From contig CAMJRR010000014.1 in assembly GCA_946408345.1 (NCBI GenBank), positions 1 to 64,000 of the forward strand: a stretch of 64,000 nt of DNA, read 5' to 3'. Position numbers and translations under genes: made by a program. The notes beneath the pieces were generated by a model. The model made no database searches. It worked only from the letters and a program-made list of their open reading frames with translations, and was not told where the DNA came from. Each line of letters starts with the position of its first letter. Position 1 is the first letter of the stretch. This document shows, piece after piece, positions 12,223-25,139 of the stretch. The stretch is from an uncultured Bacteroidales bacterium (GTDB lineage: Bacteria; Bacteroidota; Bacteroidia; Bacteroidales; F082).

Positions 12223-12537
12223 ATGTCTCGAAACAACGAATTCTTTCATGCCTGCAAGGTCGATAATTGGTACATTTTTGAGCATACCGAATACGAATGG
12301 GACGACATCGTGAACGCCTTCATTGCGGGAGGCTTGTATGCCGACAGAAACCCCAAAATCCAATGGGTTAAACTTACCGAAGAAACGGTCAAGGAATTGT
12401 TTGACTATGCGAGATACTTGGTCTACCGTGCGGATTACGACGAGTACTATGTCCTTGACGGAACGACCATTAAGGAAACCATCAACGAAGGAAAATACAC
12501 CCATGCCAAATTGATTGAAGGGCCAGGGATGGTTTGA
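12223..12537 (+). CDS. Hypothetical protein, 104 residues
   Basis: Small soluble acidic protein with no signal peptide or membrane segment. Rich in aromatic residues (WYIFEHTEYEWDD, RADYDEYYVLDG). I do not recognise a family. It opens the accessory island and has its own upstream inverted repeats rather than the shared 44-bp module, which begins 30 nt after its stop codon. Confidence 0.6.
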   Translation: MSRNNEFFHACKVDNWYIFEHTEYEWDDIVNAFIAGGLYADRNPKIQWVKLTEETVKELFDYARYLVYRADYDEYYVLDGTTIKETINEGKYTHAKLIEGPGMV

Positions 12538-12566: not shown

Positions 12567-12610
12567 GCTTGTGCTGCGATTCGGCACAGATAGATGCTAT
12601 TTTTGCAGCG
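12567..12610 (+). promoter_or_regulatory. Island module copy 1 (palindrome plus promoter)
   Basis: CTTGTGC-N9-GCACAGA with loop ending ATTCG, then a perfect -7 box TATTTTTG at 12598-12605 and GCAGCG. Spacing from palindrome to TTTGCAGCG is identical to copies 2-5. This copy has the weakest palindrome ends and the best -7 box, and no T-tract, so here it cannot be simply a terminator. It heads the 74-residue and UDG-like genes. Confidence 0.75.
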
Positions 12611-12667
12611 AAAAACAAAACAAATCAAGGAAATCAACAATGATTGTTTAACTAAAACCGTAAAAAA

Positions 12668-12892
12668 ATGGCACTTTGGAAAATTTCAGCAAAAGGCAAT
12701 TGGAACTGGGGCACAAACAAAAATCTTGTGAAAGGCATGTTCATCGAAATGTCGACATCTTCAACGGCCCCTCCGTTGGGTTTGACCAAATATCAAGAAT
12801 CCATTGCACAGGCTTTCAATACAAAGTATTCAACTAAGTTTGACAAGTCTAAAATGAGTGGTTCTTACTTGGTGTGTGAGAAGATTGGATAA
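12668..12892 (+). CDS. Hypothetical small protein, 74 residues
   Basis: Starts MALWKISAKGNWNWG and ends YLVCEKIG. Looks like a small beta-rich domain (an opening basic strand, a KGMFIEMSTS strand, one helix, a final strand). I have no firm family name. It lies behind island module copy 1 and 35 nt before the UDG-like gene, so the two are probably co-transcribed. It could be a small partner or inhibitor, but that is only inference. Confidence 0.65.
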   Translation: MALWKISAKGNWNWGTNKNLVKGMFIEMSTSSTAPPLGLTKYQESIAQAFNTKYSTKFDKSKMSGSYLVCEKIG

Positions 12893-12927
12893 CAGATTAA
12901 GTCCATAGAACATTAAATGAAAGACTT

Positions 12928-14148
12928 ATGATAAAAGAAGAATTAGAAAAATGGGCAGAGCAAGCATCTGACCTTTATAATAAGATAGGAAGCGAGAAGA
13001 ACCTATCTTTTTATACACAGTCTCCTTTGGATAAACTTGTTGATAATCAGGTTGAAGTGATGATTATCGGCATCAATCCTGGTTCTGAAGGTGATTATAA
13101 AACTATGCTCACCAACAAAGCTTGGACTCATTGCAACAGCAAAATCGAAAAGATGCCGACATGGCATCTTCTCAAAGGCAACCACAATTGGATAGAATCA
13201 ATGAATTGTTCTTCATGGGATTTGCATATTAACTGGCCATATTTCAAAGGTCTTATGCGATACTTTTCTCTAATTGGAGAAAGGAATATCCTCATGGATG
13301 AAACGAAGTTTGTGTTGACAAACATGACTTTCCTTAACACGAAGAACAAGAAAGATTTAAGCGATGACATTCTCCCGCAAACTATCTCACACACGGTTAA
13401 ACTCATAGAGATTATCAAGCCAAAAATGATAGTGTTTTTAGCTGGTGGCGATGCGTTTGGATACTTAAACAATCTGAAGGAAGAATCCAAGTTTCAAGAC
13501 CTTACAAGCAAATATCCCATCAAGAAAGTCAAAGATTCTTCCATTCATGTGGGGTCATTATGTGGAATTCCGTGTTATGGAGTCCGTCACCCTGCTTATG
13601 AAGCTGAAGAAGTGTTTTTGCAGATTTCTACATTCTTGAAATGTGTTATTGGTCTTGAGATAAAAGACCTGCCTCCTTGCGACTATATAAATGAACAATG
13701 CAACGAAGCTGTAAAATATGTTGAAAAGGCTAAAGTGTTGAAAGATAGAATCAAGCCCGTAGTTTCGGCAACAGGGGCTTGTTCTTGGATTTACCAACAT
13801 GAAGTATTGGTAATTGAACAATCTACAAGTTGGGACTCAAATGATGGAGGTTTGAAACAAACCGCAAAAATTGGGAACAATAACATTGCGATGGATCTTA
13901 CACCTGTATCACACGAGAACAAGTATTATTTAAGCGTATTTTGCAGAAACAAGGACAACTCCGCCGCTGCTATTATTTTGAAAAGACTATTGGAAAGAGT
14001 AAATGTTGAATTTCAGCCATATTTCAACAATCCTAATAGGCATCTTGTGGCAAGTTTTGATTTTGATGACGACGAATCCATCATAAAGACAATAACAGAA
14101 ACGATACAAACACTCAAAAACGCTATATGTCAATCATTTAATCATTGA
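12928..14148 (+). CDS. Uracil-DNA-glycosylase-superfamily-like protein with extra C-terminal domain
   Basis: Residues ~40-235 look like the UDG fold: MIIGINPGSEGDY resembles the GINPG motif of the MUG/TDG branch, and PCYGVRHPAY resembles the second active-site loop (H-P-S/A). This suggests base excision or, as in several divergent members, only nucleic-acid binding. The catalytic residue cannot be assigned. Residues ~240-406 form a second domain without a recognised motif (WIYQHEVLVIEQST, MDLTPVS). Moderately AT-rich relative to the core genes nearby, consistent with acquisition. Probably an operon with the 74-residue gene. Confidence 0.6.
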   Translation: MIKEELEKWAEQASDLYNKIGSEKNLSFYTQSPLDKLVDNQVEVMIIGINPGSEGDYKTMLTNKAWTHCNSKIEKMPTWHLLKGNHNWIESMNCSSWDLHINWPYFKGLMRYFSLIGERNILMDETKFVLTNMTFLNTKNKKDLSDDILPQTISHTVKLIEIIKPKMIVFLAGGDAFGYLNNLKEESKFQDLTSKYPIKKVKDSSIHVGSLCGIPCYGVRHPAYEAEEVFLQISTFLKCVIGLEIKDLPPCDYINEQCNEAVKYVEKAKVLKDRIKPVVSATGACSWIYQHEVLVIEQSTSWDSNDGGLKQTAKIGNNNIAMDLTPVSHENKYYLSVFCRNKDNSAAAIILKRLLERVNVEFQPYFNNPNRHLVASFDFDDDESIIKTITETIQTLKNAICQSFNH

Positions 14149-14197
14149 GATTGAATCCAACGAGCGTAATTACACAAAAAAAAGATATTTGTTTTCA

Positions 14198-14241
14198 GCC
14201 TGTGCAACAATTCAGCACAGGCTTCTTTTTTCTTTGCAGCG
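14198..14241 (+). promoter_or_regulatory. Island module copy 2
   Basis: GCCTGTGC-N9-GCACAGGC, perfect 8-bp arms, loop AACAATTCA, then T-rich TTCTTTTTTC and TTTGCAGCG. Lies 49 nt after the UDG-like stop codon and 28 nt before the AAA ATPase start codon. Confidence 0.78.
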
Positions 14242-14269
14242 TGAAAACAGACTCAAAAAAAGGAATGTC

Positions 14270-15928
14270 ATGGAAACCAAGAAAAGAACGACCCCAAAAA
14301 TGAATTTGCTATCCGCTGTGGAGCAAGTTGTAGAACTCTCTAAAGGATCTCGTCTCAATGATGAGTTTTACAAAAAGGCAGCTCGCCCATTGAAACACCT
14401 TGCCGACAATCTTGAACTTTCCAAAGAGCAATGCGTGATGATGGCTCTTTTTATTGACAACAGCACCAATTCAAATATTAGAGTCAGCGAATTCTCTCGT
14501 CACCTCGATTGTAGCACTACCCGAATCATCCGTTTCTTGGCAGATGTCGATGAATTGGTATGCCGTGGGCTGGTCTGTCGCAATCATTCCAAACGTGAGA
14601 TAACCTACCGAGTGCCATTGGAAGTGATTGAGGCCTTCAAACGTAATGAGAAATACGTACCCAAAGACTATTCGGGTCTTAGTTGTGATGAACTTTTCGG
14701 GCTGATTGCTGAAATTATGGAAATGCGCGACAACGACGAGTTGAGCACAAATTTGGCTGTGAATCGCATACAGGATTTGTTGGAGAAAAATCGTCATTTG
14801 GTATTTGTCCAAAAACTGAAAAGCTATTGCTTCTGTCAATGCGATGAGGTCCTTTTGGTCTTGTTCGCTCACTTGTATGTCAACAACAATGATGACGATA
14901 TTAGATACAGTGACCTAGAATTCTTTTTCGACAGCAAAGCGCAGTGGAATGTTATAAAAAGACTCCTCAACAATAATGACAGCGACTTGCAACTTGCAAA
15001 ATTGATAGAATACAATAATGACAATGGCCTTGCTGACCGAGAGTCGTTTCGTCTGACATGGAATGCAAAGTTGTCGTTGTTTCCAGAACTCAATGTCAGT
15101 ATGTTGAGTGTTGATAACAACCGCAATAATCTAATTCACCACGAAACTATTACATCCAAGCAACTTTTCTACGACCAATGTGTAGCGGAACAAATCCAAG
15201 ATTTGGGCCAACTCTTGGAAGAAAGCCACTACAGAGACGTATGTAGCCGACTGAAAGACAAAGGTTTTCGCAGCGGCTTCACCTGCCTTTTCTATGGCGC
15301 ACCAGGAACGGGCAAGACCGAAACCGTTTTGCAGTTGGCTCGTCAAACGGGACGAGACATTATGCAGGTTGATGTTTCGGAAATCAAGAGCATGTGGGTT
15401 GGGGAGAGTGAGAAGAACATCAAGGCGGTGTTCGACCAGTATCGCGAGAAGGTTGCTCAGCAGTCCATCACTCCTATCCTGCTCTTCAACGAGGCCGACG
15501 CCATCATCGGCAAGCGTCAGGAGGGAGCGGAGCGTGCCGTGGAGAAGATGGAGAACTCCATCCAGAACATCATCCTTCAGGAAATGGAGACTCTCGAAGG
15601 CATCCTCATCGCCACCACCAACCTCGCCCAAAACATGGACAAGGCCTTCGAACGTCGTTTCCTCTACAAAATCAAGTTCAACAAGCCTACGCTGGAGGCC
15701 AGGATGCAAATCTGGCATTCGATGCTGCCCGAGTTGCAGGAGTCAGACATTCGTGCCTTGGCCGAGAAGTACGACTTCAGCGGAGGCCAGATTGAGAACA
15801 TCGCGCGACACTATGCCATCGACACCATCCTGCACAGCGATGCAGCGTCATCCTTGGAGAAACTGATGGCGCATTGCGACGGTGAGCGTTTGGAGCAGAA
15901 AGAAAGCCATAAGATTGGCTTTAAATAA
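14270..15928 (+). CDS. AAA+ ATPase with N-terminal winged-helix-like region
   Basis: A 552-residue ATPase. The start METKKRTTP lies just after module copy 2. The first ~130 residues look like a helical/winged-helix region (NIRVSEFSRHLDCSTTRIIRFLADVDELVCRGLV). The AAA+ core has Walker A YGAPGTGKTE near residue 345, Walker B ILLFNEADAI near 405 with Asn in place of the usual first Asp, sensor-1 ATTN and the Arg-finger region AFERRF. The LFNEAD variant occurs in a Bacteroidetes group of stand-alone AAA proteins related to the FtsH/spastin/CDC48 type. The likely role is remodelling of a protein or nucleoprotein target; the target is unknown. Confidence 0.8.
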   Translation: METKKRTTPKMNLLSAVEQVVELSKGSRLNDEFYKKAARPLKHLADNLELSKEQCVMMALFIDNSTNSNIRVSEFSRHLDCSTTRIIRFLADVDELVCRGLVCRNHSKREITYRVPLEVIEAFKRNEKYVPKDYSGLSCDELFGLIAEIMEMRDNDELSTNLAVNRIQDLLEKNRHLVFVQKLKSYCFCQCDEVLLVLFAHLYVNNNDDDIRYSDLEFFFDSKAQWNVIKRLLNNNDSDLQLAKLIEYNNDNGLADRESFRLTWNAKLSLFPELNVSMLSVDNNRNNLIHHETITSKQLFYDQCVAEQIQDLGQLLEESHYRDVCSRLKDKGFRSGFTCLFYGAPGTGKTETVLQLARQTGRDIMQVDVSEIKSMWVGESEKNIKAVFDQYREKVAQQSITPILLFNEADAIIGKRQEGAERAVEKMENSIQNIILQEMETLEGILIATTNLAQNMDKAFERRFLYKIKFNKPTLEARMQIWHSMLPELQESDIRALAEKYDFSGGQIENIARHYAIDTILHSDAASSLEKLMAHCDGERLEQKESHKIGFK

Positions 15929-15956
15929 TTTTGGAGAACAATGTAAAGATTATTGA

Positions 15957-16000
15957 GACTGTGCCGTGATTTGGCACAGTCTTTTGTTTTCTTTGCAGCG
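15957..16000 (+). promoter_or_regulatory. Island module copy 3
   Basis: GACTGTGC-N9-GCACAGTC: the outer bases differ from the consensus but change together (A with T), so pairing is kept. Followed by TTTTGTTTTC and TTTGCAGCG. Starts 28 nt after the AAA ATPase stop codon. Confidence 0.78.
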
Positions 16001-16041
16001 GAAAACAGCAACCGAGACCTACACATTCAAGGAACTTATGC

Positions 16042-16049
16042 TATTTTTG
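16042..16049 (+). promoter_or_regulatory. Additional -7 box before the PLD gene
   Basis: TATTTTTG followed by C, a canonical box 22 nt before the start codon. The PLD gene thus has this promoter as well as module copy 3 about 50 bp upstream. Confidence 0.6.
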
Positions 16050-16071
16050 CATTACTAAACAAACAACAACC

Positions 16072-16584
16072 ATGTTGAAACTCATCACCGATTCCGCCCA
16101 TTACACTGAAGTACTCGCTCGGGTCCCCAAGGTCAAGCGCAGCCTTTGGATTGGCACCGCCGACATCAAAGACCTGTATGTCAAGGTCGGCACGCAAACG
16201 AAGCCCTTTCTTGCGGTTTTGGCACAGCTCATCAAAAAAGGTGTGGAAGTGCGGCTCATCCATGCCAAGGAGCCGGGTCCCGCGTTTCGTGAGGACTTCG
16301 ACAAATACCCAGCCTTGTTTGATGGCTTGGAGAGGGCGCTTTGTCCGAGGGTGCATTTCAAGATCTTGGTCTTCGATGGCCAAGTGGCTTATATCGGCAG
16401 CGCCAACCTCACCGGCGCAGGCATCGGCATGAAAGGCGATGGTACGCGCAACTTCGAGGCCGGCATCCTCACTGACAATCCTGAGTTGGTTGAGCAAGCC
16501 ATGAACCAATTCGATGCGGTTTGGATAGGAAAGCACTGCAAGGCATGTAAACGGAAAGATTTTTGTGGCGATCCAATAGCCTGA
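16072..16584 (+). CDS. Phospholipase D-like nuclease domain protein
   Basis: A 170-residue protein with a single HKD motif: H-F-K-I-L-V-F-D near residue 95 followed by GSANLTG near 108, the HxKx4Dx6GSxN pattern. Single-motif members act as dimers, mostly as DNA endonucleases (Nuc/NucT type). No signal peptide, so cytoplasmic, which fits DNA rather than lipid as substrate. The C terminus has a compact Cys cluster (CKACKRKDFCGDP) that may bind zinc. It sits among other nucleic-acid genes under the shared module. Confidence 0.8.
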   Translation: MLKLITDSAHYTEVLARVPKVKRSLWIGTADIKDLYVKVGTQTKPFLAVLAQLIKKGVEVRLIHAKEPGPAFREDFDKYPALFDGLERALCPRVHFKILVFDGQVAYIGSANLTGAGIGMKGDGTRNFEAGILTDNPELVEQAMNQFDAVWIGKHCKACKRKDFCGDPIA

Positions 16585-16612
16585 TTGTTTCAGAGACAAG
16601 AAAATGGTTTTA

Positions 16613-16656
16613 GCCTGTGCTGTGATTCGGCACAGGCTTTTGTTTTCTTTGCAGCG
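16613..16656 (+). promoter_or_regulatory. Island module copy 4
   Basis: GCCTGTGC-N9-GCACAGGC with loop TGTGATTCG, then TTTTGTTTTC and TTTGCAGCG. This is the cleanest copy: 8-bp perfect arms. It begins 28 nt after the PLD stop codon and ends 21 nt before the next start codon. Confidence 0.78.
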
Positions 16657-16677
16657 TGAAAACAATAAGAAATTCCC

Positions 16678-17115
16678 ATGAAATACAGACACAAAATGAA
16701 GCTGCAAGAAACAGCCAAGGTAAAAGGCCAAAAACGCCGCGTGACCGACTGCTCTGAAAGGCCACAATACACAGATGAAGAAGTGGCCAAACTGGTCGAT
16801 TACGACTATGGCTATTTGTTGGATATGATTTACTACAAACTTGAAAGCATGAGAGATTTCTTCCTAAGCAAGCATACACATTGTGCTGATGCCAGAAAAT
16901 ATGCAAAGCAAATGGAGGTGGCCATGCGACTCATTAGCATTACCCAAGGCAAGGATGCTTTCTTTGACGACGACGAGGACGCGCCATACGTCAACACGAG
17001 GAACTTCAAACGCTATGAAAAGCAGTTTTATTCCTGCCATTCGCTGCGTAAAGAAAAAGCTTGGCATGTGCTGTTTATGTATCTGGAACATCGAATGCGG
17101 GGGTGGTGGGATTGA
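16678..17115 (+). CDS. Hypothetical protein, 145 residues
   Basis: Soluble basic/acidic protein with no known motif that I can name. The N terminus is Lys-rich (MKYRHKMKLQETAKVKGQKRR), the middle helical, and the end reads AWHVLFMYLEHRMRGWWD. C-terminal Trp-Trp-Asp endings of this kind recur in small Bacteroidetes accessory proteins, but I cannot assign a function. Directly behind module copy 4. Confidence 0.65.
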   Translation: MKYRHKMKLQETAKVKGQKRRVTDCSERPQYTDEEVAKLVDYDYGYLLDMIYYKLESMRDFFLSKHTHCADARKYAKQMEVAMRLISITQGKDAFFDDDEDAPYVNTRNFKRYEKQFYSCHSLRKEKAWHVLFMYLEHRMRGWWD

Positions 17116-17120
17116 TTGTT

Positions 17121-17152
17121 TTTGGTGAAATGAAAGGATATTTGTAGTTTTG
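17121..17152 (+). promoter_or_regulatory. Canonical Bacteroidetes promoter
   Basis: TTTG at 17121-17124, 20-nt spacer, TAGTTTTG at 17145-17152. Both boxes fit the -33/-7 consensus. It drives the 295-residue gene and the Mrr-like remnant and has no island palindrome. Confidence 0.7.
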
Positions 17153-17167
17153 CAAAGTATATTATCA

Positions 17168-18052
17168 ATGAAAACAAATATGGAATACACTAACTCAACA
17201 GAAATAGATAAACCTGATGATCAGTCAATTAAGCTCCATAATTTTATAAACTCATGGGATAACAATAACTTGATAAAGTTGGATTATTATCCTAAATCGT
17301 ACAAAAAATACCCCTGTGTTGAATTATTGCTAGAAAGCTATATTGTCGAATTAGTATTTAAATACTATGATGATGAAAACAGGAATGAAATACAGACACG
17401 CTTTTATCTTAATACTGAAGAAGTAAGCAGGCAATTTGTATTAAAAAAGAATCTTCCTGCCAATCATTTTACAACTTTTCTGAAATTCAGAGGTGATCAC
17501 TATTCTTATAGTGTAACATATTCCAATTGGGCTAATATGATAATAGATTTTGTTATGGCTGTTGAAAAAGAGACGGATTCGTTCCTTCGATTGGTCGAAT
17601 CGTCATGCCCTTTCAATAAAGATGGAACACATAAATTCAAAGAATGGAAGAATCATGCTAAAGTAAAGATTTCGTATGTTGAGGATACCGATCATATACA
17701 AGGCGTAAAAAATGGTGAAATCGTGTCTGGTTCACATGTCGTCGGTTCAAATGGTTCGTTTTGTAAATGGTATCCAAGGACTTATGTGATAAAGTATACA
17801 GTTGATGAAATGGGTTACGAAAAACCCATAAAACATACATACGATTATGATGCTGATTCTTTTTTGCGGGAGTTTAAGGAAAAAATGGGATATTCGAATA
17901 TGCCATATAAGTTGTTGAATTCCAAGTTCCCAAACAGAATCGAAGTTGTGACTAGAGAAATGGATAAAGATCCTGAATGCAGGACATTTTATCCTGTAGA
18001 ATACAACAATGATTGGATAGAGTTTCTAAAACAAACGATTGGTTGCTTATAA
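17168..18052 (+). CDS. Hypothetical protein, about 294 residues
   Basis: No recognised family. AT-rich compared with chromosomal neighbours, many Asn/Lys/Tyr residues, no signal peptide or membrane helix. ATG at 17168 is chosen because the earlier in-frame start overlaps the -7 box; ATG at 17180 (MEYTNS) is equally possible. A central VSGSHVVGSNGSFCKWYPRTYVIKY stretch looks like beta strands. It precedes the Mrr-like restriction gene by 15 nt, so it may be part of that restriction unit. Confidence 0.6.
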   Translation: MKTNMEYTNSTEIDKPDDQSIKLHNFINSWDNNNLIKLDYYPKSYKKYPCVELLLESYIVELVFKYYDDENRNEIQTRFYLNTEEVSRQFVLKKNLPANHFTTFLKFRGDHYSYSVTYSNWANMIIDFVMAVEKETDSFLRLVESSCPFNKDGTHKFKEWKNHAKVKISYVEDTDHIQGVKNGEIVSGSHVVGSNGSFCKWYPRTYVIKYTVDEMGYEKPIKHTYDYDADSFLREFKEKMGYSNMPYKLLNSKFPNRIEVVTREMDKDPECRTFYPVEYNNDWIEFLKQTIGCL

Positions 18053-18067
18053 AAAACATAAAACAAC

Positions 18068-18781
18068 ATGACTAAATACTGGCTACATCGAATCACTGGT
18101 GGTGATAATGCAATTGAATTTGCACACCCTCTATTATTCTCCCACAATTATTTGTCCATTGGATGGAGTGATTTTTCTGACGAAGCTTTTCTTGAAAATA
18201 TACGAGAACACGGCATAGATGGTTTGGATGAAGAAATGCAAAACAGAGATTATGGTTTGCCAAAAAACAGATGGAATTTATGGCGTTTTATAATAGAAAT
18301 GAAGAAAGGTGATATTGTTGTCGTTCCGACCTGGGGCGAATTTAGTTTGTTTGAGTTAGTTGATGACATTGTTTTCACCAATGAATCTATGGATGGCTGT
18401 ATTTATCAAGATTGGAACGATAATAAAGCAACACTACATGATGGATACTACTATAATTGTGAAAATAAAATAATCGATCTTGGTTTTTATAGAAAGGTTA
18501 AGCCATTGCTTATCAACATACCTAGAGATGGTTACGCTGACCAAGAATTGTTTTCAAGGATGAAAATAAGACAGACTAATGCAGACATTTCAGATTTGGC
18601 AGAATCAATTGAATATGCACGAAAAGCATTTGAAGAAAACAATCCAATTAACCTAAAAGAACAAATTGTTGAAGAAACAGCACCTAAACTATTGGCACTA
18701 ATTGAAAAATGGACTACAGACATCAACTTTGAAGATTTGGTTGAATGGTATCTAAGGTCGTTGGGAGCTAGAATAGTATAA
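18068..18781 (+). pseudogene. Mrr-like restriction endonuclease, 3' end lost at IS insertion
   Basis: The 237-residue product starts like a Bacteroidetes restriction endonuclease family (YWLHRITGG, LSIGWSDFSD, NLWRFIIEMKKGDIVVVPTWG, RMKIRQTNADISDL). It ends INFEDLVEWYLRSLGARIV, which in relatives is the first helix of the Mrr catalytic domain (FExLVxWYFxxxGA). The nuclease active-site half is absent because the frame stops at the left end of the IS3-family element. What remains is the N-terminal recognition-like half, so nuclease activity should be lost. Confidence 0.75.
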
Positions 18782-18845
18782 TGCTCCCTAAAATTTAGAC
18801 CAAAGGTTAAAGTGGTTATCTTTGCAGAAACGAAAGGGAAAAAAG

Positions 18846-19142
18846 ATGACCAACACGAAGACAAGGAGCCGCCGGAAGTTCACGGCGGAGTTCAAGGCGA
18901 AAGTCGCCATGGAAGCATTACAGGAGAAGCTGACATTGAGTGAGTTGAGCAAGAAGTACGAAGTCCATCCGAATCTGATCACGAAATGGAAGAACCAGCT
19001 GAAGGAGCAAAGCACAAGCGTTTTCAAGGAACGCGGCGAGGCTACAGGCGAAGCCAAGGACAAGCTCATAGAGCAGCTGTACAAGACCATCGGCTCGCTG
19101 ACGATGGACGTGGAGTTCCTAAAAAAAAAGCTGTCGCTATGA
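18846..19142 (+). CDS. IS3-family transposase OrfA (HTH)
   Basis: A 98-residue DNA-binding protein with an HTH_Tnp_1 domain: RRKFTAEFKAKVAMEAL and LSELSKKYEVHPNLITKWK, then a leucine-zipper-like tail. It ends in a run of nine A (19121-19129), the usual site of programmed -1 frameshifting that makes the OrfAB transposase. It overlaps the orfB start by 4 nt. Confidence 0.92.
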   Translation: MTNTKTRSRRKFTAEFKAKVAMEALQEKLTLSELSKKYEVHPNLITKWKNQLKEQSTSVFKERGEATGEAKDKLIEQLYKTIGSLTMDVEFLKKKLSL

Positions 19143-19981
19143 GCAAGGGAGAGCGCAAGAGGATGGTTTCCAAGGAGGAGGAGCTGAGCATCCGCCAACA
19201 ATGCGTGCTGCTCGGCCTGTGCCGTACCTCATTGTACTACACCGCATCGGAGGAGACGGCGGAGAACCTGGAAATCATGCGCCTTCTGGACCGACAATAC
19301 GCCATCACGCCGTTCTACGGCCAGCGCCGCCTTCAGGCGTGGCTCGCGGAGAATGGATACCCGGTGAACATCAAGCGTCTGCGGAGGCTGATGGGGCTGG
19401 CTCGGTGGAGGACACTGTTCCCGGAACACCGCACGACAGTCGCCGACAAGAAGGCATACAAGTACCCATACCTGCTGAAAGGCCTCGACATAGACCGCCG
19501 CAACCAAGTCTGGGAGCTTGATATCAGCTACATTCCGATGCGTCGCGGCTACATGTACCTGTTCGCCGTCATAGACGTGTACACGCGCTACGTGGTGGGC
19601 TGGAGCCTGAGCAACACGATGACGGCACAATGGTGCGTCGCGGTGCTCAGGGAGGCCTTCGAACACCACGGATGCCCTGAAATCGTCAACAGCGACCAAG
19701 GCGGCCAGTTCACATCGGCAGACTATGTGGAGCTGTTGGAGGGCAACGGCGTCGCCATCAGCATGGACAGCCGTGGCCGTGCCTTGGACGACATCTTCAT
19801 CGAGCGGCTGTGGCGCAGCGTGAAGCAGGAGTACGTGTACCTGAACCCTTGCGAAACGGGCGACGAGCTATGGCGCGGCCTGGACGGATACTTCCGCTTC
19901 TACAACGACGAGAGGCTTCACCAGAGCCTTGGATACAAGACACCTGCAAGCCGCTATCTCCTCCAAAAAGAGGCGGCTTGA
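19139..19981 (+). CDS. IS3-family transposase OrfB (DDE catalytic domain)
   Basis: Integrase-core transposase of 280 residues. HTH_21-like N terminus (TPFYGQRRLQAWL), then rve domain with the DDE triad in WELDISYIPM, NSDQGGQF and FIERLWRSVKQE; the spacing (D-D-35-E) and SMDSRGRALDD segment fit IS3. It is in the -1 frame relative to orfA, so the active enzyme is probably the frameshift fusion; the ATG given would allow reinitiation. The gene is intact. Confidence 0.92.
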   Translation: MSKGERKRMVSKEEELSIRQQCVLLGLCRTSLYYTASEETAENLEIMRLLDRQYAITPFYGQRRLQAWLAENGYPVNIKRLRRLMGLARWRTLFPEHRTTVADKKAYKYPYLLKGLDIDRRNQVWELDISYIPMRRGYMYLFAVIDVYTRYVVGWSLSNTMTAQWCVAVLREAFEHHGCPEIVNSDQGGQFTSADYVELLEGNGVAISMDSRGRALDDIFIERLWRSVKQEYVYLNPCETGDELWRGLDGYFRFYNDERLHQSLGYKTPASRYLLQKEAA

Positions 19982-20008
19982 CGCATAAAGAGACAAAAAC
20001 ACTATCGA

Positions 20009-22339
20009 ATGAGAAACAATTTGTATATTTGCAACGCTAAACCGCAAACGAAAACCACCTTAACCTCGCATATCAGTGGTTCAAACTTCGGGACGCATTA
20101 TATTCCCATTGGGTCTTTCTTGCTTTCGGACATTACCGATGATCAAGACAAAGGAAAATATTACTTGATGGACGGACAGCAACGGTTTAATGCCATCAGT
20201 CTTGGCTTTAACACTGTTGAAAACGCCAGGGCGATGCTTTGGCTTGACCTAAATCCTCCACAAGTGAAAAACTCGACACGAAGTTTTTGGATTAAAACTA
20301 CAACGATTCCACATCCTTGGGGGTTCAAAAATGATGATGAATGTACAAGACTGAATACATCTGAAAAGCGGGAAGCGTTGGACAGATTCGGTCTTATGGG
20401 GAACATTTACAATAATGAGTTTTCACTGAAAAGAACATGGCCTATTGAGGCCGGTGCACCTATTCCTCTTTATTGTCTATTGAAAGCTGGAACAGAGAAT
20501 TGCGAAACATTTCTTGAAGAATCCCTGGATAATTTCAGAAAGTCTGATTTCGCTTGCAAAGACCTTAAGATTTCTGATCAAGAGAAGGACTATATTAGAG
20601 CGATTTATCCTGCATTTCAAAGAATCAAAGAATATCAAGTTAATTGCAACCATCTGTCGAAGGCCGTGATAGAAAAGGAAACAATGACCGAAACAAATGA
20701 ACAGACAACCCTCGAAGTGTTGTTTACAAGGCTTAACACGGGCGGGACAGCAATCTCAAAAGATGATTTAAACTATTCGGCAATCAAGGCGTATTGGCCC
20801 TCCATAAAAGAAACAAACGACTGTCTAGCACAGCACTATATGAATCCATCAAAATTGGCTATGTTGGCTTTTCGCTTGGCATTAACCAAAGATGAGGACA
20901 AGGGACTTAAATCGGAATTGAGCATCAAAGAAATCAGAAATGTCGCTAAAGATGAATGGGGAAGCAAGTCAATAGAAGAATTGTATAATAATAAAAACCT
21001 CGAACAAGTACTACCAAAAGTGGATGAATGGTTGGGCGTTAATGATAAGTCAGATATGAAAACGCCAAGTTTGTTGCGCACTTTGATCGCTCGTAATTCG
21101 CCTGACATTTACTTGTTGCTTATGTACTTTGCATACAAGGATTTACAAACTGGAATTGATTTGAAGTCTGACGAAATCAAAGCACTTGCTTTTTGTCTGC
21201 ACTGGTTTTCAAACGACAAAAAAGGCTGTGTTCAAGAAGTGTTCTCGAGATGCAAGAACGGAATAAATGTCGCGAACATTCAAACTGCATTGAGTCGCTT
21301 GATGCATGACTGCAAGTTATTACATATCTATACCCTTGAAGATGTCAAGCAATTCATAAAAATCGAGGCATCGGAAAAATGGCAGTTGGGGCAAAGTTTG
21401 CCTACTCCAGCGCATGAGTTTTTCAACAGGGTTTTCTAGTATTGGACCACGGAGGCTAAAGAAATGCTGCTGTATGCGCAACGCCAGTATCTAAACACCC
21501 ATTTCTCAAATTATGACCCTGCCCGGCAGGATATGTGGGCAGAATACAATCGTCCTTGGGATTACGATCATATAGTTGCACAAGACCGGATTGCTGGTAA
21601 ACGAGAGAAATATCGAGAATTTGACAAGATTTGGTTGAATAGCATAGGAAACATTGCTGCCATTTCATTCGAGGCCAACCGAAGCAAGAACAACGGATTG
21701 CAATTTGATGAATATCAAAGCAATGAAGAGGCTTTGTTATATGATAGGCGGATTGAAGCTTCGCCATTTGAAATCACGCGCTATCAGTCTGAAAGTGGTG
21801 ATTTTGCAAATATCACCTACGAGCGATTCTGCAATATCTATGGCGTCACATTCAACATGATGAAAGTCCTTTTGGAAAACACAATTCTTTCCAACACATT
21901 GCAACAACGAAAAGACTTGTTTATGAAAATAAAGGAGCAACTTCCAGACTCGGTGTTCTGCTTTGCAGCATCTGACACAAAAGACCATCTGCTTACAAGA
22001 GAACAAGATTGGGCACGAGAATGGATAGGAGTGGGATTTGAAATAAGCGATTACTTTGTATGTTGCGAATGGGATGCCAGAAAAAACGAAGGGAAACCGA
22101 TTGATGTTGAAATCGGTATTAGAAAGATTCCAGAAACCATGATTACTAAAGAAAAGTTGGATAAAGTAGCCGATTTAAGCATTGATGGATATGAGAAGAT
22201 TACAAATAACGACTGGTGGTATTATTGGAAAGATGCCAGTGATATGATGGAAGTTGACCAAATCGTTGAAGAGATGAAAAATCTGAAATTAAAGTTGGAA
22301 AAACATAGGCTTGTTCCAAATCCTCAATTTTTTTCATAA
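20009..22339 (+). pseudogene. DUF262/HNH (GmrSD-type) protein gene, 5'-truncated and split by in-frame TAG
   Basis: One long frame interrupted by a single TAG at 21437-21439. The first half carries the DUF262 ParB-like motif YYLMDGQQRFNAISL near residue 55 (GmrS-type NTPase site) and VLFTRLNTGGTAISKDDL. The second half carries a GmrD-type DUF1524 HNH region (YDHIVAQD, then LNSIGNIAAISFEANRSKNNG). Both halves are in the same frame, and the sequence between TAG and the next ATG (YWTTEAKE) still reads as protein. The N terminus before DGQQR is shorter than usual and abuts the IS. GmrSD-type enzymes cut modified phage DNA; this copy is probably dead unless TAG is read through. Confidence 0.8.
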
Positions 22340-22356
22340 AATGTGAATCTCTCAAA

Positions 22357-22400
22357 GCCTGTGCTTCAATTCGGCACAGGCTTTTGTTTTCTTTGCAGCA
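22357..22400 (+). promoter_or_regulatory. Island module copy 5
   Basis: GCCTGTGC-N9-GCACAGGC with loop TTCAATTCG, then TTTTGTTTTC and TTTGCAGCA. Begins 18 nt after the GmrSD-like stop codon and ends 20 nt before the next start codon. Confidence 0.78.
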
Positions 22401-22419
22401 AATTTCAATACAAAGCACT

Positions 22420-23085
22420 ATGAACATCAAAGACCTATTACAAGACGATGCCTTAAGGACACTTGAAGACCAAATCATCATGTCGTTTGAAGGGCTTTGG
22501 AGCAAAGACCACGACTACACCGACGAGCGTAGTCTTATCGAAGTCAGGAAAACCATCATCAACCATCGTGTGTTGCAATATCAGGATTTGCTGCTGCCCG
22601 ACATCATAGCCTTCAACGACACAATGAGCGAGGCCTTGCGCGAAATGTTCGACAAAGCCCACGCCGTGTATGAAGCCAACAAAGGCTTCGGTGAAGATGT
22701 GGAGGTCGAGGCCTGCTGCTACCTCAGTAATGACTATCCAGCATTGCACCCCGTGCAAGGCGAAAACCGTCAAGATCTTTGGAATGCTTTGCAGGATTCA
22801 GGATGGAACCTGCTGTATGAAGGCGGCGTGGCTTTTCCTCTCCAATTGAGAGGGAACGACGATCCTGATTCCAACGACTTTGACGAATTTATCGGGATGA
22901 ATTGTCCACCGCCCAACTGGAACGAAGGCCTCGACCAGGAACTGACCAAAGACCTGCACCTGATACAAGCCTTCCACAACTTGTTCGACCACACTGATTT
23001 TACCATCACTGACTTCATCTATTGCCGTGAGTTTTACTATGAAATCAAAGTTGAGCTCCGTAATGAAGCACAGCAAAACCATTGA
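22420..23085 (+). CDS. Hypothetical protein, 221 residues
   Basis: Acidic soluble protein starting MNIKDLLQDDALRTLED. No recognised motif; aromatic and acidic residues throughout (GMNCPPPNWNEGLDQEL). GC content is like the core genome, unlike the AT-rich genes at 17-18 kb. Its 3' end overlaps the next gene by 23 nt, so the pair is translated from one message behind module copy 5. Confidence 0.65.
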   Translation: MNIKDLLQDDALRTLEDQIIMSFEGLWSKDHDYTDERSLIEVRKTIINHRVLQYQDLLLPDIIAFNDTMSEALREMFDKAHAVYEANKGFGEDVEVEACCYLSNDYPALHPVQGENRQDLWNALQDSGWNLLYEGGVAFPLQLRGNDDPDSNDFDEFIGMNCPPPNWNEGLDQELTKDLHLIQAFHNLFDHTDFTITDFIYCREFYYEIKVELRNEAQQNH

Positions 23086-23491
23086 CACTGCCACCATCGC
23101 CCACCTGCTCAGTCACGAGGACGAGCACGGAATGGGGCGTGTCTTCATGTATGCTTTCCTCAACGAAGTGATACGACAGAAACGACCATTCCCATTCGAT
23201 TGTGAATCCGCTCAAATAACCCCCAACTTGATGATTGTTGACTATCAAGGAAGAAGCATCGCCGTTGAGCAAAGGCGCAATCGGCTTAGTTTAACCCTCA
23301 ACGACCAACGAAGTGAAACCTCCGCACTCATTGAATACAAAGGTAAAGCCTATCGCCAAGTCTTTCTTGATTGGCTTGCCGCCTGCATCCGATACACTTC
23401 GCTGCAACCTGAACTTCGCAAAGAACTGACAGGATATGCCCAATCCATTCAAAGAAAAATTTGGTTTATAAAAGTTTTGCCTGTGCATTAA
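23063..23491 (+). CDS. Hypothetical protein, 142 residues
   Basis: Begins MKHSKTIDTATIAHLLSHEDEHGMG. No recognised family. The second gene of the module-5 operon, overlapping its partner by 23 nt. Its last codons (LPVH then TAA) are formed by the left arm of module copy 6, so the coding end and the repeat are fused, as expected if repeat and gene travelled together or the repeat was pasted at the gene end. Confidence 0.65.
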   Translation: MKHSKTIDTATIAHLLSHEDEHGMGRVFMYAFLNEVIRQKRPFPFDCESAQITPNLMIVDYQGRSIAVEQRRNRLSLTLNDQRSETSALIEYKGKAYRQVFLDWLAACIRYTSLQPELRKELTGYAQSIQRKIWFIKVLPVH

Positions 23492-23522
23492 TTCGGCACA
23501 ATCTTTTTATTATCTTTGCCGC
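23479..23522 (+). promoter_or_regulatory. Island module copy 6, upstream of the WYL regulator
   Basis: GCCTGTGC-N9-GCACAATC with loop ATTAATTCG: the outer two right-arm bases are lost. It carries a perfect -7 box TATCTTTG at 23511-23518, one base further from the palindrome than in copies 1-5. Together with copy 1 this shows the module keeps a promoter even where the terminator-like T-tract or outer stem is poor. Confidence 0.72.
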
Positions 23523-23536
23523 ATAAAACCAACCCC

Positions 23537-23652: not shown

Positions 23653-24561
23653 ATGTCCAAAAACCAAATCAACAAATACGTATGGCTTGTAGAGACGCTC
23701 TACCATGCCAAGAAAATCACGCTGAAGGAAATCAACCGCAGGTGGCTCGATACTGATTTGAGCGAGGGCCAGGAGATACCGCGCCGCACGTTCCACACAT
23801 GGAAGAACGCGGTGGAAGATATGTTCGGCCTCGTCATTCTATGCGACAAGAGCGACGGCGACCGCTATTATATCGAGAACCGCGAGGTGCTTGAGGACGA
23901 CGGCCTGCAACGCTGGCTGCTCAGCACCATGTCGGTCAACAACACGCTGTTGGAAAATAAGTCGCTCAGCGACCGCATCCTTTTGGAAAGCATCCCATCG
24001 GGCCAAGACTTCCTCGCCACCGTCATGGAAGCGATGAAGAAAAACCGATTGCTGGAAATCACCTATAAAGGTTTTTGGAGCGAAAGCGAGCACACCTTCC
24101 CTGTGGCACCCTATTGCGTGAAGCTGTTCCGGCAGCGGTGGTATATGGTGGGCAACAGCGTCTATGAAGACAAAATCCGAATCTATTCCTTAGATCGCGT
24201 ACTGAAGGCCCGGCTGTCGGAGGAGACCTTCAAATACCCCAAGAAATTCAGTCCAGAGAACTACTTCAAAGGCTGTTTCGGCATCATTCGCGATGAGGAA
24301 TGCCCCATCGAGACCGTGAAACTGAAAGTGAGCGCCAACCAAGCCAACTACCTGCGTTCCCTACCCTTGCATCCTTCACAAAAGGAGCTGGTGCATACCG
24401 GCGAATACAGCATCTTCTCCGTTGAGGTGCGCCCCACCTTCGACTTCCAACAGGAACTCCTCTGGAACGGTGATGCACTTGAAGTGTTGGAGCCGCTTTG
24501 GCTGCGAAAGGAAATGGCCAGTATGGTGAAACGGATGTGGAACAATTACAGCAAAGAATGA
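23653..24561 (+). CDS. WYL-domain transcriptional regulator
   Basis: A 302-residue regulator. The N terminus (MSKNQINKYVWLVETLYHAKKITLKEINRRW) is a winged-helix domain, and residues ~135-210 form the WYL domain (ITYKGFWSESEHTFPVAPYCVKLFRQRWYMVGN, with RIYSLDRV), which senses ligands, probably nucleic-acid-derived. A WCX-like C terminus follows. This architecture matches WYL repressors such as BrxR and CapW that bind palindromes ahead of defence operons. It lies behind module copy 6, so autoregulation through the palindrome is the simplest idea. Confidence 0.88.
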   Translation: MSKNQINKYVWLVETLYHAKKITLKEINRRWLDTDLSEGQEIPRRTFHTWKNAVEDMFGLVILCDKSDGDRYYIENREVLEDDGLQRWLLSTMSVNNTLLENKSLSDRILLESIPSGQDFLATVMEAMKKNRLLEITYKGFWSESEHTFPVAPYCVKLFRQRWYMVGNSVYEDKIRIYSLDRVLKARLSEETFKYPKKFSPENYFKGCFGIIRDEECPIETVKLKVSANQANYLRSLPLHPSQKELVHTGEYSIFSVEVRPTFDFQQELLWNGDALEVLEPLWLRKEMASMVKRMWNNYSKE

Positions 24562-24644: not shown

Positions 24645-25139
24645 ATGAACTCCTTCGCCACCATAGACTTCGAGACCGCCAACAACGAGCGCACAAGCGT
24701 GTGCAGCGTCGGCGTGGTGATTGTGAAAGAAGGCGAGTTTGTGGACTCCTTTTATTCGCTAATCCAACCCGAGCCAAACTATTACCTCTATTGGAACACG
24801 CTCGTCCATGGCATTACCAAGGCCGATACCGAGGATGCACCCGTGTTTCCATATGTGTGGCAAAAGATCGAGCCACTTATTGAGGGTCTGCCTCTCGTGG
24901 CGCACAATAGCCCATTCGATGAAGGCTGCCTAAAAGCCGTGATGCGTTGCTACCAGATGGATTACCCTGACTATCAGTTCTACTGCACCTGCCGTGCCTC
25001 GCGCAAACACTTCGGAAAGCTACTTCCTAACCACCAGCTGCACACCGTGGCGGCAGCCTGCGGCTTCGATTTGGTCAACCATCATAACGCCTTAGCCGAT
25101 GCCGAAGCTTGTGCTTGGATTGCACGGGAGATTTTGTAA
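24645..25139 (+). CDS. DnaQ-like 3'-5' exonuclease
   Basis: A 164-residue DEDDh-type exonuclease domain. Exo I ATIDFETAN (Asp8, Glu10), Exo II LVAHNSPFDEGCLK, Exo III HHNALADAEACAW supply the four acidic residues and the His. It resembles DNA polymerase III epsilon-type stand-alone exonucleases. It lies 83 nt after the WYL gene on the same strand with no clear promoter between, so it may be co-expressed. Confidence 0.88.
   Translation: MNSFATIDFETANNERTSVCSVGVVIVKEGEFVDSFYSLIQPEPNYYLYWNTLVHGITKADTEDAPVFPYVWQKIEPLIEGLPLVAHNSPFDEGCLKAVMRCYQMDYPDYQFYCTCRASRKHFGKLLPNHQLHTVAAACGFDLVNHHNALADAEACAWIAREIL

Follow-up and report, generated by a model that had tools for sequence, protein, structure and literature searches.

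What does it mean when a row of unrelated genes is headed, again and again, by the same short palindrome and promoter-like tail? The question arises in the window analyzed here, a stretch of 64,000 nucleotides from an uncultured Bacteroidales bacterium, for which an original prediction had proposed a shared operator and a regulon that recruits genes. Our comparison with relatives favors this proposal, by way of the co-orientation of the genes, the co-occurrence of the element with a WYL-domain protein, and the change of neighbors at the element. We hold it likely, at odds of roughly two in three, that each module is the WYL operator and promoter of a regulon of exchangeable defense cassettes, doubling as the junction at which they are exchanged. 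In the literature searched, with subscription papers mostly outside reach, no description of such a module or array was found.

The six modules are indeed intergenic, with all cores on the forward strand, at 12567..12614 (core 12570-12588), 14198..14245 (core 14201-14219), 15957..16004 (core 15960-15978), 16613..16660 (core 16616-16634), 22357..22404 (core 22360-22378), and 23479..23526 (core 23482-23500). Each stands after one stop codon, which copy 6 overlaps, and before the next start, as predicted. The typical module holds a 25-bp dyad, GCCTGTGC-N9-GCACAGGC, followed by 13-14 nt and then TTTGC. The outer bases of copy 3 co-vary (GAC/GTC), and copies 1 and 6 carry perfect -7 boxes (TATTTTTG and the canonical TATCTTTG, respectively), both of which had been noticed beforehand; in these last two copies the outer arms pair incompletely, those of copy 6 being weak. 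Two measurements needed correction. The conserved unit is not 44 bp but about 48 bp long, from about -4 to +45 relative to the core in a profile of 164 matches (158 distinct) that still includes nine later-dropped non-modules, and the distance from GCACA to TTTGC is 13 nt, or 14 in copy 6, rather than 17-18. That this spacing is constant in copies 1-5 and one base longer in copy 6 was borne out.

Within the window, TGTGC-N4-ATTCG-GCACA with up to three mismatches is matched seven times (the six modules, plus copy 3 again on the opposite strand) versus 2.05 +/- 1.45 times in shuffled sequences. In the organism's own draft genome (3.07 Mb), TGTGC-N4-ATTYR-GCACA occurs exactly six times, always in this array, and its reversed pattern not at all. 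Allowing two mismatches gives 27 matches versus 17 for the reversed-pattern control, so the 21 beyond the six look like background. Exact cores are thus not scattered over the genome away from genes, an outcome that had been named as counting against a regulon. A strict pattern had no match in viral contigs.

The array itself lies on the forward strand. Its left-border gene (12223..12537, from the list of open reading frames) encodes 104 aa and was assigned by length and place to family 13, whose 104-aa proteins stand before the first module in several arrays. Behind module 1 come a 74-aa gene (12668..12892), placed by gene-family comparison in family 44, and a gene resembling the UDG superfamily (12928..14148; Pfam match below cut-off, E 9.8e-5). 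In four other arrays, too, family 44 follows this variant of the module. On domain and defense-profile matches, module 2 is followed by an AAA+ ATPase resembling IetA (14270..15928) and module 3 by a phospholipase-D-like, DrmC-like gene (16072..16584). Module 4 heads a 145-aa gene of family 31 that recurs behind modules (16678..17115), a second listed frame that likewise has no Pfam match (17150..18052), a gene whose N-terminus resembles PDC-S02 (18068..18781), an IS3-type insertion of two overlapping frames directly after it (18822..19981; reading-frame list and domain scan), and two genes with Pfam matches to GmrSD_N (20009..21439) and GmrSD_C (21464..22339). Behind module 5 lie family 3, without Pfam match (22420..23085), and family 5, with a weak PD-(D/E)XK_4 match below cut-off (23027..23491). 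Module 6 precedes the WYL-domain regulator (23653..24561), the proposed binder of all modules, and an RNase_T-type exonuclease (24645..25139; domain match), a right-border gene kept in relatives, comes next.

Across the arrays, the exchangeable cargo includes GmrSD, PD-(D/E)XK, PLD, UDG-like, RhuM-Fic, Nmad, and FtsZ-like genes. GmrSD_N was found in 21 of 101 cargo representatives and PDDEXK_4 in 6 of 101; PADLOC matches also occur among the cargo, and known and candidate defense genes cluster as in a defense island. As judged from domain and profile matches, many of the cargo genes are probably anti-virus or defense genes. Families 3 and 6 and the WYL gene are the commonest genes behind a module (15 each), and the recurrent families without Pfam match among the scanned representatives include 3, 5, 6, 9, and 19. 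The family 14 frames, antisense to the PLD gene, were set aside as artifacts of mechanical ORF picking. The arrays of a second hotspot end in a 329-aa protein.

How far does the module extend beyond this genome? A motif search of relatives, as the original prediction had suggested, found it conserved in those with such genes, so that a second outcome named as counting against a regulon, lack of conservation there, did not occur either. The genus, which comprises ruminant gut bacteria, holds 157 copies in 43 of 99 genomes, with up to eight near-identical copies per genome. Our detailed set contains 155 modules from 42 genomes; nine pattern matches without T-tract and TTTGC (L124, L128, L135, L142, L163, L164, L165, L168, and L199) were dropped as non-modules. 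Outside the genus, single uninspected pattern matches occur in G016, G157, and G162. A co-oriented gene follows the module in 141 of 155 cases, starting within 100 nt in 121 of the 141; please note that gene calls next to modules come from mechanical ORF picking.

Modules and the WYL gene travel together. In the genus, modules are present in 34 of 38 genomes encoding a WYL protein of at least 73% identity and in 9 of the 61 others (Fisher 6e-14), a tally in which single uninspected matches in G082 and G117 (C1) count as modules and which, because the genomes are related, is not one of independent events. Among the four module-less genomes with the gene, three (G134, G108, and G050) have it at a contig end or within about 310 nt of one, and the fourth (G067) has a one-mismatch copy. 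Conversely, four draft genomes (G064, G084, G092, and G130) have modules and no WYL protein of at least 50% identity. At 8 of 10 fetched loci with WYL orthologs of 54-61% identity and no exact copy, variant dyads were found at the same spacing, and the controls (other strand, reversed pattern, and swapped arms) each gave 0 of 10. WYL relatives outside the genus gave a weak result, which counts against the association: 4 of 30, the window's own among them, have the module geometry upstream, versus 6 of 120 control windows.

The promoter boxes fall into two classes. A canonical TA -7 box is found in 27 of 28 modules heading WYL or RhuM-Fic genes and in 14 of 126 heading cargo (112 of 126 are not TA), a count that leaves out L143, a module without TTTG. 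This dichotomy is understated, since the cargo class still contains L134, L169, and L077, which have the canonical box and precede a WYL gene with a mis-picked ORF, and L160, which has RhuM-Fic module sequence. The dyad stands 13 or 14 nt from TTTGC in 153 of 155 modules. With start-relative positions deduced from the boxes, this is a DriD-type arrangement of a dyad over -33, a fixed distance to -7, and poor boxes. A sigma-70 scan was uninformative, with 22 sites versus 22.8 in shuffles.

Comparison of arrays shows that linkage changes inside the element. Among module pairs between arrays, 309 share the right flank only, 195 the left only, 59 both, and 10612 neither, and the switch falls within the module (136 of 155 modules, those with 13-nt spacing). 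Alignments end at a module in both sequences in 173 of 705 cases on the left and 163 of 592 on the right, clustering at the module's two edges; by chance, a position in one sequence would lie near a module in 7% of cases. Cassettes keep one orientation, and the arrays at the main site keep the same right border. The distinct gene-module-gene junctions number 102, of which 18 recur in at least two genomes and 84 are found in a single genome. In our reading, the module is where cassettes enter a common regulon, presumably by homologous recombination. The zone of crossover extends across the element instead of forming a single step, as expected of homologous exchange.

Several rival accounts were weighed. 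The junctions might be chimeras of metagenome assembly, given that the named relatives are nearly all metagenome assemblies and the other relatives drafts, and that the repeat is about 48 bp; the recurring junctions, the pairs sharing both flanks, the single orientation, and the constant right border make this most improbable. Site-specific recombination, with the module as an integron- or rAID-like site served by a dedicated recombinase encoded elsewhere, would account for junctions inside the element and for the strong hairpins formed by cargo-copy dyads, and the available text on Bacteroidales rAID arrays (PMC12247911) describes a recombinase together with co-oriented genes and conserved intergenic motifs. 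Our arrays likewise are variable, co-oriented, and provided with a conserved intergenic motif. However, compared by description and not by motif letters, they differ from rAID in that the main array has a WYL regulator at its end and the cargo, where annotated, is restriction- or nuclease-like rather than T6SS immunity. Tyrosine recombinases (PF00589), the class covered by the search, occur in 20 of 20 genomes, yet on contigs that bear modules none lies closer to a module than about 19 kb, and none was found near the arrays as far as the contigs extend. Integron cassettes are also interchangeable units bounded by a dyad element, but here each unit has its own promoter-like element; the same 20 genomes gave no match to an IntI-type integrase (PF00589) beside the arrays, and the attC core letters, as generally known, are absent from the dyad ends, where TGTGC/GCACA are conserved. 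With the crossover zone spread as it is, we consider a dedicated recombination site unlikely.

A further reading, which we consider very unlikely, makes the module chiefly an intrinsic terminator whose promoter-like tail is accidental and whose gene linkage is owed to its place after stop codons. Terminator activity for the previous gene had been thought possible, and for cargo modules this is plausible: they form stable hairpins, with a median MFE of -15.8 kcal/mol (versus -7.3 for WYL and -5.3 for RhuM-Fic copies) and a T-rich tract behind, and copies 3-5, GC-rich hairpins followed by a T tract, are the three strongest terminator-like sites at 12-25 kb (22 sites versus 13.1 +/- 3.6 in shuffles). 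Copies 1, 2, and 6 are not among these sites (copy 2, though it folds well, has a loop of 9 bases). As the whole explanation it meets further obstacles: the WYL and RhuM-Fic copies keep dyad core and -7 box despite weak hairpins, conservation runs on to +45, 33 of 155 copies follow an opposite-strand ORF (mechanical picking), and the co-occurrence with WYL is left unexplained.

If the module is the operator of a regulon, what kind of protein binds it? The product of the array-end gene has WYL and WCX domains above cut-off and, although its HTH has no Pfam match, a helical N-terminus in the structure model (moderate, with pLDDT 78 and pTM 0.51), whose fold matches WYL regulators over the full length. 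Of the 32 PDB chains that a fold search returned at E<=1e-3, 30 are titled DriD, PafBC, CapW, or BrxR. DriD came first (E 2e-13, TM-scores 0.44-0.46 in the top Foldseek matches, identity about 20%), but whole-length TM-scores to it are only 0.35-0.46 when normalized by the query's length. The family profile matches the DriD C-domain (E 1.6e-16) over residues 119-295, that is, WYL-WCX and outside the DNA-binding part. Its nine matches at 1e-3 include DriD and PafBC and not BrxR or CapW, whose fold matches are also weaker than DriD's. The protein thus appears closest to DriD, an ssDNA-triggered activator. The available text on DriD of Caulobacter (PMC12340889) describes sites that overlap -35 and keep a constant distance from -10, in promoters whose boxes are poor. 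Its regulon resembles ours in the dimeric WYL-WCX factor, the dyad of about 20 bp over -35 at several weak promoters, and the site upstream of the factor's own gene, although there it serves the divergent operon. It differs in that our genes are clustered and exchangeable behind near-identical modules that are themselves exchange junctions, with a Bacteroidota promoter type and other dyad letters.

The same operator and regulon could instead be run by a repressor of the CapW or BrxR type, blocking RNA polymerase at -33 until infection releases all cassettes. As far as their available texts describe, CapW (CBASS) is a repressor that binds palindromes of 19-24 bp over -10 (PMC9122588), and BrxR (BREX) represses through inverted repeats in a defense island (PMC9122601); both are precedents for a WYL factor inside a defense locus with a palindromic operator in the promoter. 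There, one or two operators serve an operon or island, whereas here many operators stand before unrelated cargo. RptR and CapK/CapS, by comparable accounts, are also defense-locus regulators with palindromic operators, but of other protein families, and with a single promoter in the case of RptR and two sites in that of CapS. Our dyad covers the core promoter, its position over -33 suits a repressor equally well, and a weak -7 box would also cut leakage. Against this, the sequence profile is nearer the activators DriD and PafBC, with DriD the top fold match, and the -7 box is changed in cargo but not in WYL promoters, a difference that makes more sense if cargo needs help. Repression is a real possibility, if not a probable one.

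Under the preferred reading of a WYL operator-promoter, a dimer from the array-end gene would bind the 25-bp dyad over -33, with a constant spacing to the -7 box. The WYL gene, with its canonical box, would be produced at a basal level, and most cargo genes, with a crippled box (T for the conserved A), would need the regulator. DriD-like action seems most likely: ssDNA from infection or damage would load the WYL domain, and the loaded factor would then bring RNA polymerase to every module in the genome simultaneously. The hairpin and T-rich tract of many cargo copies would probably also end the preceding transcript. Because a near-identical element stands everywhere, recombination between modules may swap whole cassettes, and every recombinant would arrive correctly wired.

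How defense islands come to be put together, and how systems newly added to them are controlled, are both open questions, and they meet here in a single 48-bp element: the sequence at which cassettes change places is also the one that appears to control them, so a newly gained gene would join the shared regulation immediately. The module also provides a sequence tag by which members of a probable immune regulon can be listed, families without Pfam match among them, and the coordinated induction of cassettes can now be tested with simple reporter assays. The furthest-reaching version, which we offer tentatively and consider somewhat unlikely in full, is a plug-in immune regulon in which one element is operator of an ssDNA-sensing master activator, promoter, terminator of the neighbor, and dedicated exchange site; if true, any arriving gene would be induced by infection at once, together with all the others.

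An intergenic 48-bp module is present six times on the + strand at 12.5-23.5 kb of the window, and consists of a left arm, TGTGC, nine bases ending ATTYR, GCACA, a right arm, 13 nt, and TTTGC. The original prediction had these six copies right apart from the spacing, which it put at 17-18 nt; we measured 13 nt between GCACA and TTTGC, or 14 nt in copy 6. In the 3.07-Mb draft genome the exact core is confined to these six copies (reversed-pattern control, 0), and near-matches with two mismatches are close to background genome-wide (27 in all vs 17 in the control).

The proposed motif search of related genomes, with inspection of the genes behind each match, was run, and the module recurs. Its core is present in 48 of 173 genomes of the family, against one reversed-pattern match in all, and the window's genus (99 genomes) accounts for 45 of the 48. 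Most of the named relatives reached through the WYL regulator gene at the array end (23653..24561, +) are Bacteroidales assemblies from the ruminant gut, among them F082, now Candidatus Alcium. After removal of nine promoter-less pattern matches, 43 genomes of the genus retained 157 copies, two of which were counted from the pattern match alone; the non-redundant set holds 155 from 42 genomes. In this set, 141 of 155 copies head a + strand gene, which starts within 100 nt in 121 cases, and 118 of 155 are preceded by a co-directional gene whose stop lies a median of 28 nt away. The conserved profile reads A-GCC-TGTGC-TKYR-ATTYG-GCACA-GGC-TTTTGTTTTC-TTTGC-AGCG-T-n-AAA, its input still containing the nine matches without promoter half and its fixed core letters being imposed by the search pattern. 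Palindromes lacking the promoter half, at loci L128, L135, L142, L163, L164, L165, L168, L124, and L199, were taken as unrelated to the module; such near-perfect palindromes, e.g., TGTGCCAAAATTTGGCACA, recur there in conserved gene contexts.

At the main site, left chromosomal genes are followed by module-headed cassettes, the WYL gene, usually an RNase_T exonuclease, and more conserved genes, with up to eight modules per genome. The same module and similar cassettes are also found elsewhere. At a second hotspot (L139, L156, L162, L193, L194, L200) the terminal gene encodes, instead of WYL, a 329-331-aa protein, one copy of which had no Pfam, PADLOC, or PDB match. A third (L122, L138, L141, L157, L158, L160, L196) carries RhuM-Fic, a 74-aa gene, or an AAA gene behind its modules, and three of its loci (L122, L141, L160) hold a WYL paralogue of ~36% identity on the opposite strand. 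Among 101 cargo representatives, which include some chromosomal genes because the walk overran arrays not ending in WYL, GmrSD was found in 21 and PD-(D/E)XK_4 in 6. The matches listed, covering the first 25 of 59 Pfam families found, also include AAA IetA-like, PLD, UDG-like, RhuM-Fic, Nmad2/3, HAD_SAK_2, MoxR-vWA with YgjP peptidase, McrBC, UzuA, and a small tubulin/FtsZ-family GTPase (230 aa; L149:2715-3404, − strand; 14 family members in arrays). Several of the commonest cargo families had no Pfam match. In the window, an IS3-type insertion (18822-19981) sits directly after gene 18068-18781 and before the GmrSD pair.

A WYL orthologue of at least 73% identity is encoded in 38 of the 99 genomes, and modules occur in 34 of these 38 vs 9 of the 61 others (Fisher 6e-14; as the genomes are related, the cases are not independent of one another). 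In three of the four exceptions (G134, G108, G050) the WYL gene lies at, or within ~310 nt of, a contig end; the fourth, G067, has a one-mismatch copy. Where orthologues are 54-61% identical and the exact core is lacking, a variant dyad with the same spacing precedes WYL, or a gene upstream of it, at 8 of 10 loci, vs 0 of 10 each for the other strand, the reversed pattern, and swapped arms. Several variant dyads have altered outer arms that remain complementary (ACA/TGT, AGG/CCT). In Prevotella ihumii (WYL 54%), a locus examined without a control, such sites precede both the WYL gene and, ~5 kb after it, an AAA gene of the family of window 14270-15928; the latter dyad, at L082:16071, reads GGG-TGTGC...GCACA-CCC with TATCTTTG. 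The geometry fades in remoter WYL relatives (4/30, window's own included, vs 6/120 control windows).

At E≤1e-3, 32 PDB chains match the AlphaFold model of the WYL protein (pLDDT 78, pTM 0.51), and 30 of them are titled DriD, PafBC, CapW, or BrxR; the other two (6oaw) are a CRISPR-related protein, itself a WYL protein. The top match is DriD (whole-length TM-scores 0.44-0.46). A profile search with the WYL family matched DriD and PafBC at 1e-3 over the WYL-WCX part, and gave no match to BrxR or CapW at that threshold.

In Bacteroides, -7 boxes follow the consensus TAnnTTTG, and a TTTG stands near -33 (PMC7366714). One module without TTTG being excluded, the -7 box has TA in 27 of 28 modules before WYL or RhuM-Fic genes, vs 14 of 126 cargo modules (TT 111, GA 1; p about 1e-18), four of these 14 being probably misassigned. 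With its centre 19 nt before the box, the dyad would, by consensus spacing, cover the -33 region. DriD, which ssDNA switches on, has sites that span -35 at a constant distance from -10, and the promoters concerned have poor boxes (PMC12340889). The module dyad would likewise lie over -33, at a fixed distance from -7, and cargo boxes are mostly non-TA. Because of this likeness we favour WYL as an activator (probability about 55%); a CapW-like repressor is the less likely candidate, the remainder going to other or mixed control. Cargo modules probably also terminate the preceding transcript, since their hairpins (median MFE -15.8 kcal/mol) are stronger than those before WYL (-7.3) and RhuM-Fic (-5.3), and no terminator-like site of the region ranks above copies 3-5.

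Comparison of 300-bp flanks between modules, pairs with too little flank being skipped, gave 309 pairs sharing the right side only and 195 the left only, while 59 share both sides and 10612 share neither. As such pairs are not independent of each other, these figures show patterns rather than numbers of events. The right flanks of copy 2 and L196, for instance, align with a score of 292 (maximum 300), their left flanks with one of 11. Among modules with 13-nt spacing, excess identity switches sides inside the module, with noise at nearly invariant positions, both where the right side is shared (146 pairs, 79 modules) and where the left is (74 pairs, 54 modules). Inter-array alignments end at the module in both sequences in 173/705 cases on the left and 163/592 on the right, clustered at its two edges, vs 37 and 93 for module-less gene starts, despite the greater number of starts (234 vs 155). 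Of the 102 distinct left-module-right junctions, 18 recur in two or more genomes (84 in one), and the recurrent ones argue against assembly chimeras. All 20 genomes searched for tyrosine recombinases have them; on module-bearing contigs the closest lies ~19 kb from a module (G126). Cassette swapping is most simply explained by homologous exchange at the repeat; a dedicated recombinase moving the cassettes is less likely.

In how it works, the array resembles both a WYL-controlled defence locus and a cassette array. As far as tested, it differs from a plain BrxR/CapW locus, and is neither an rAID system of the kind found in Bacteroidales nor an integron. To judge by the literature searched, the novelty lies in the joining of a putative operator, promoter, and exchange junction in one repeated element.
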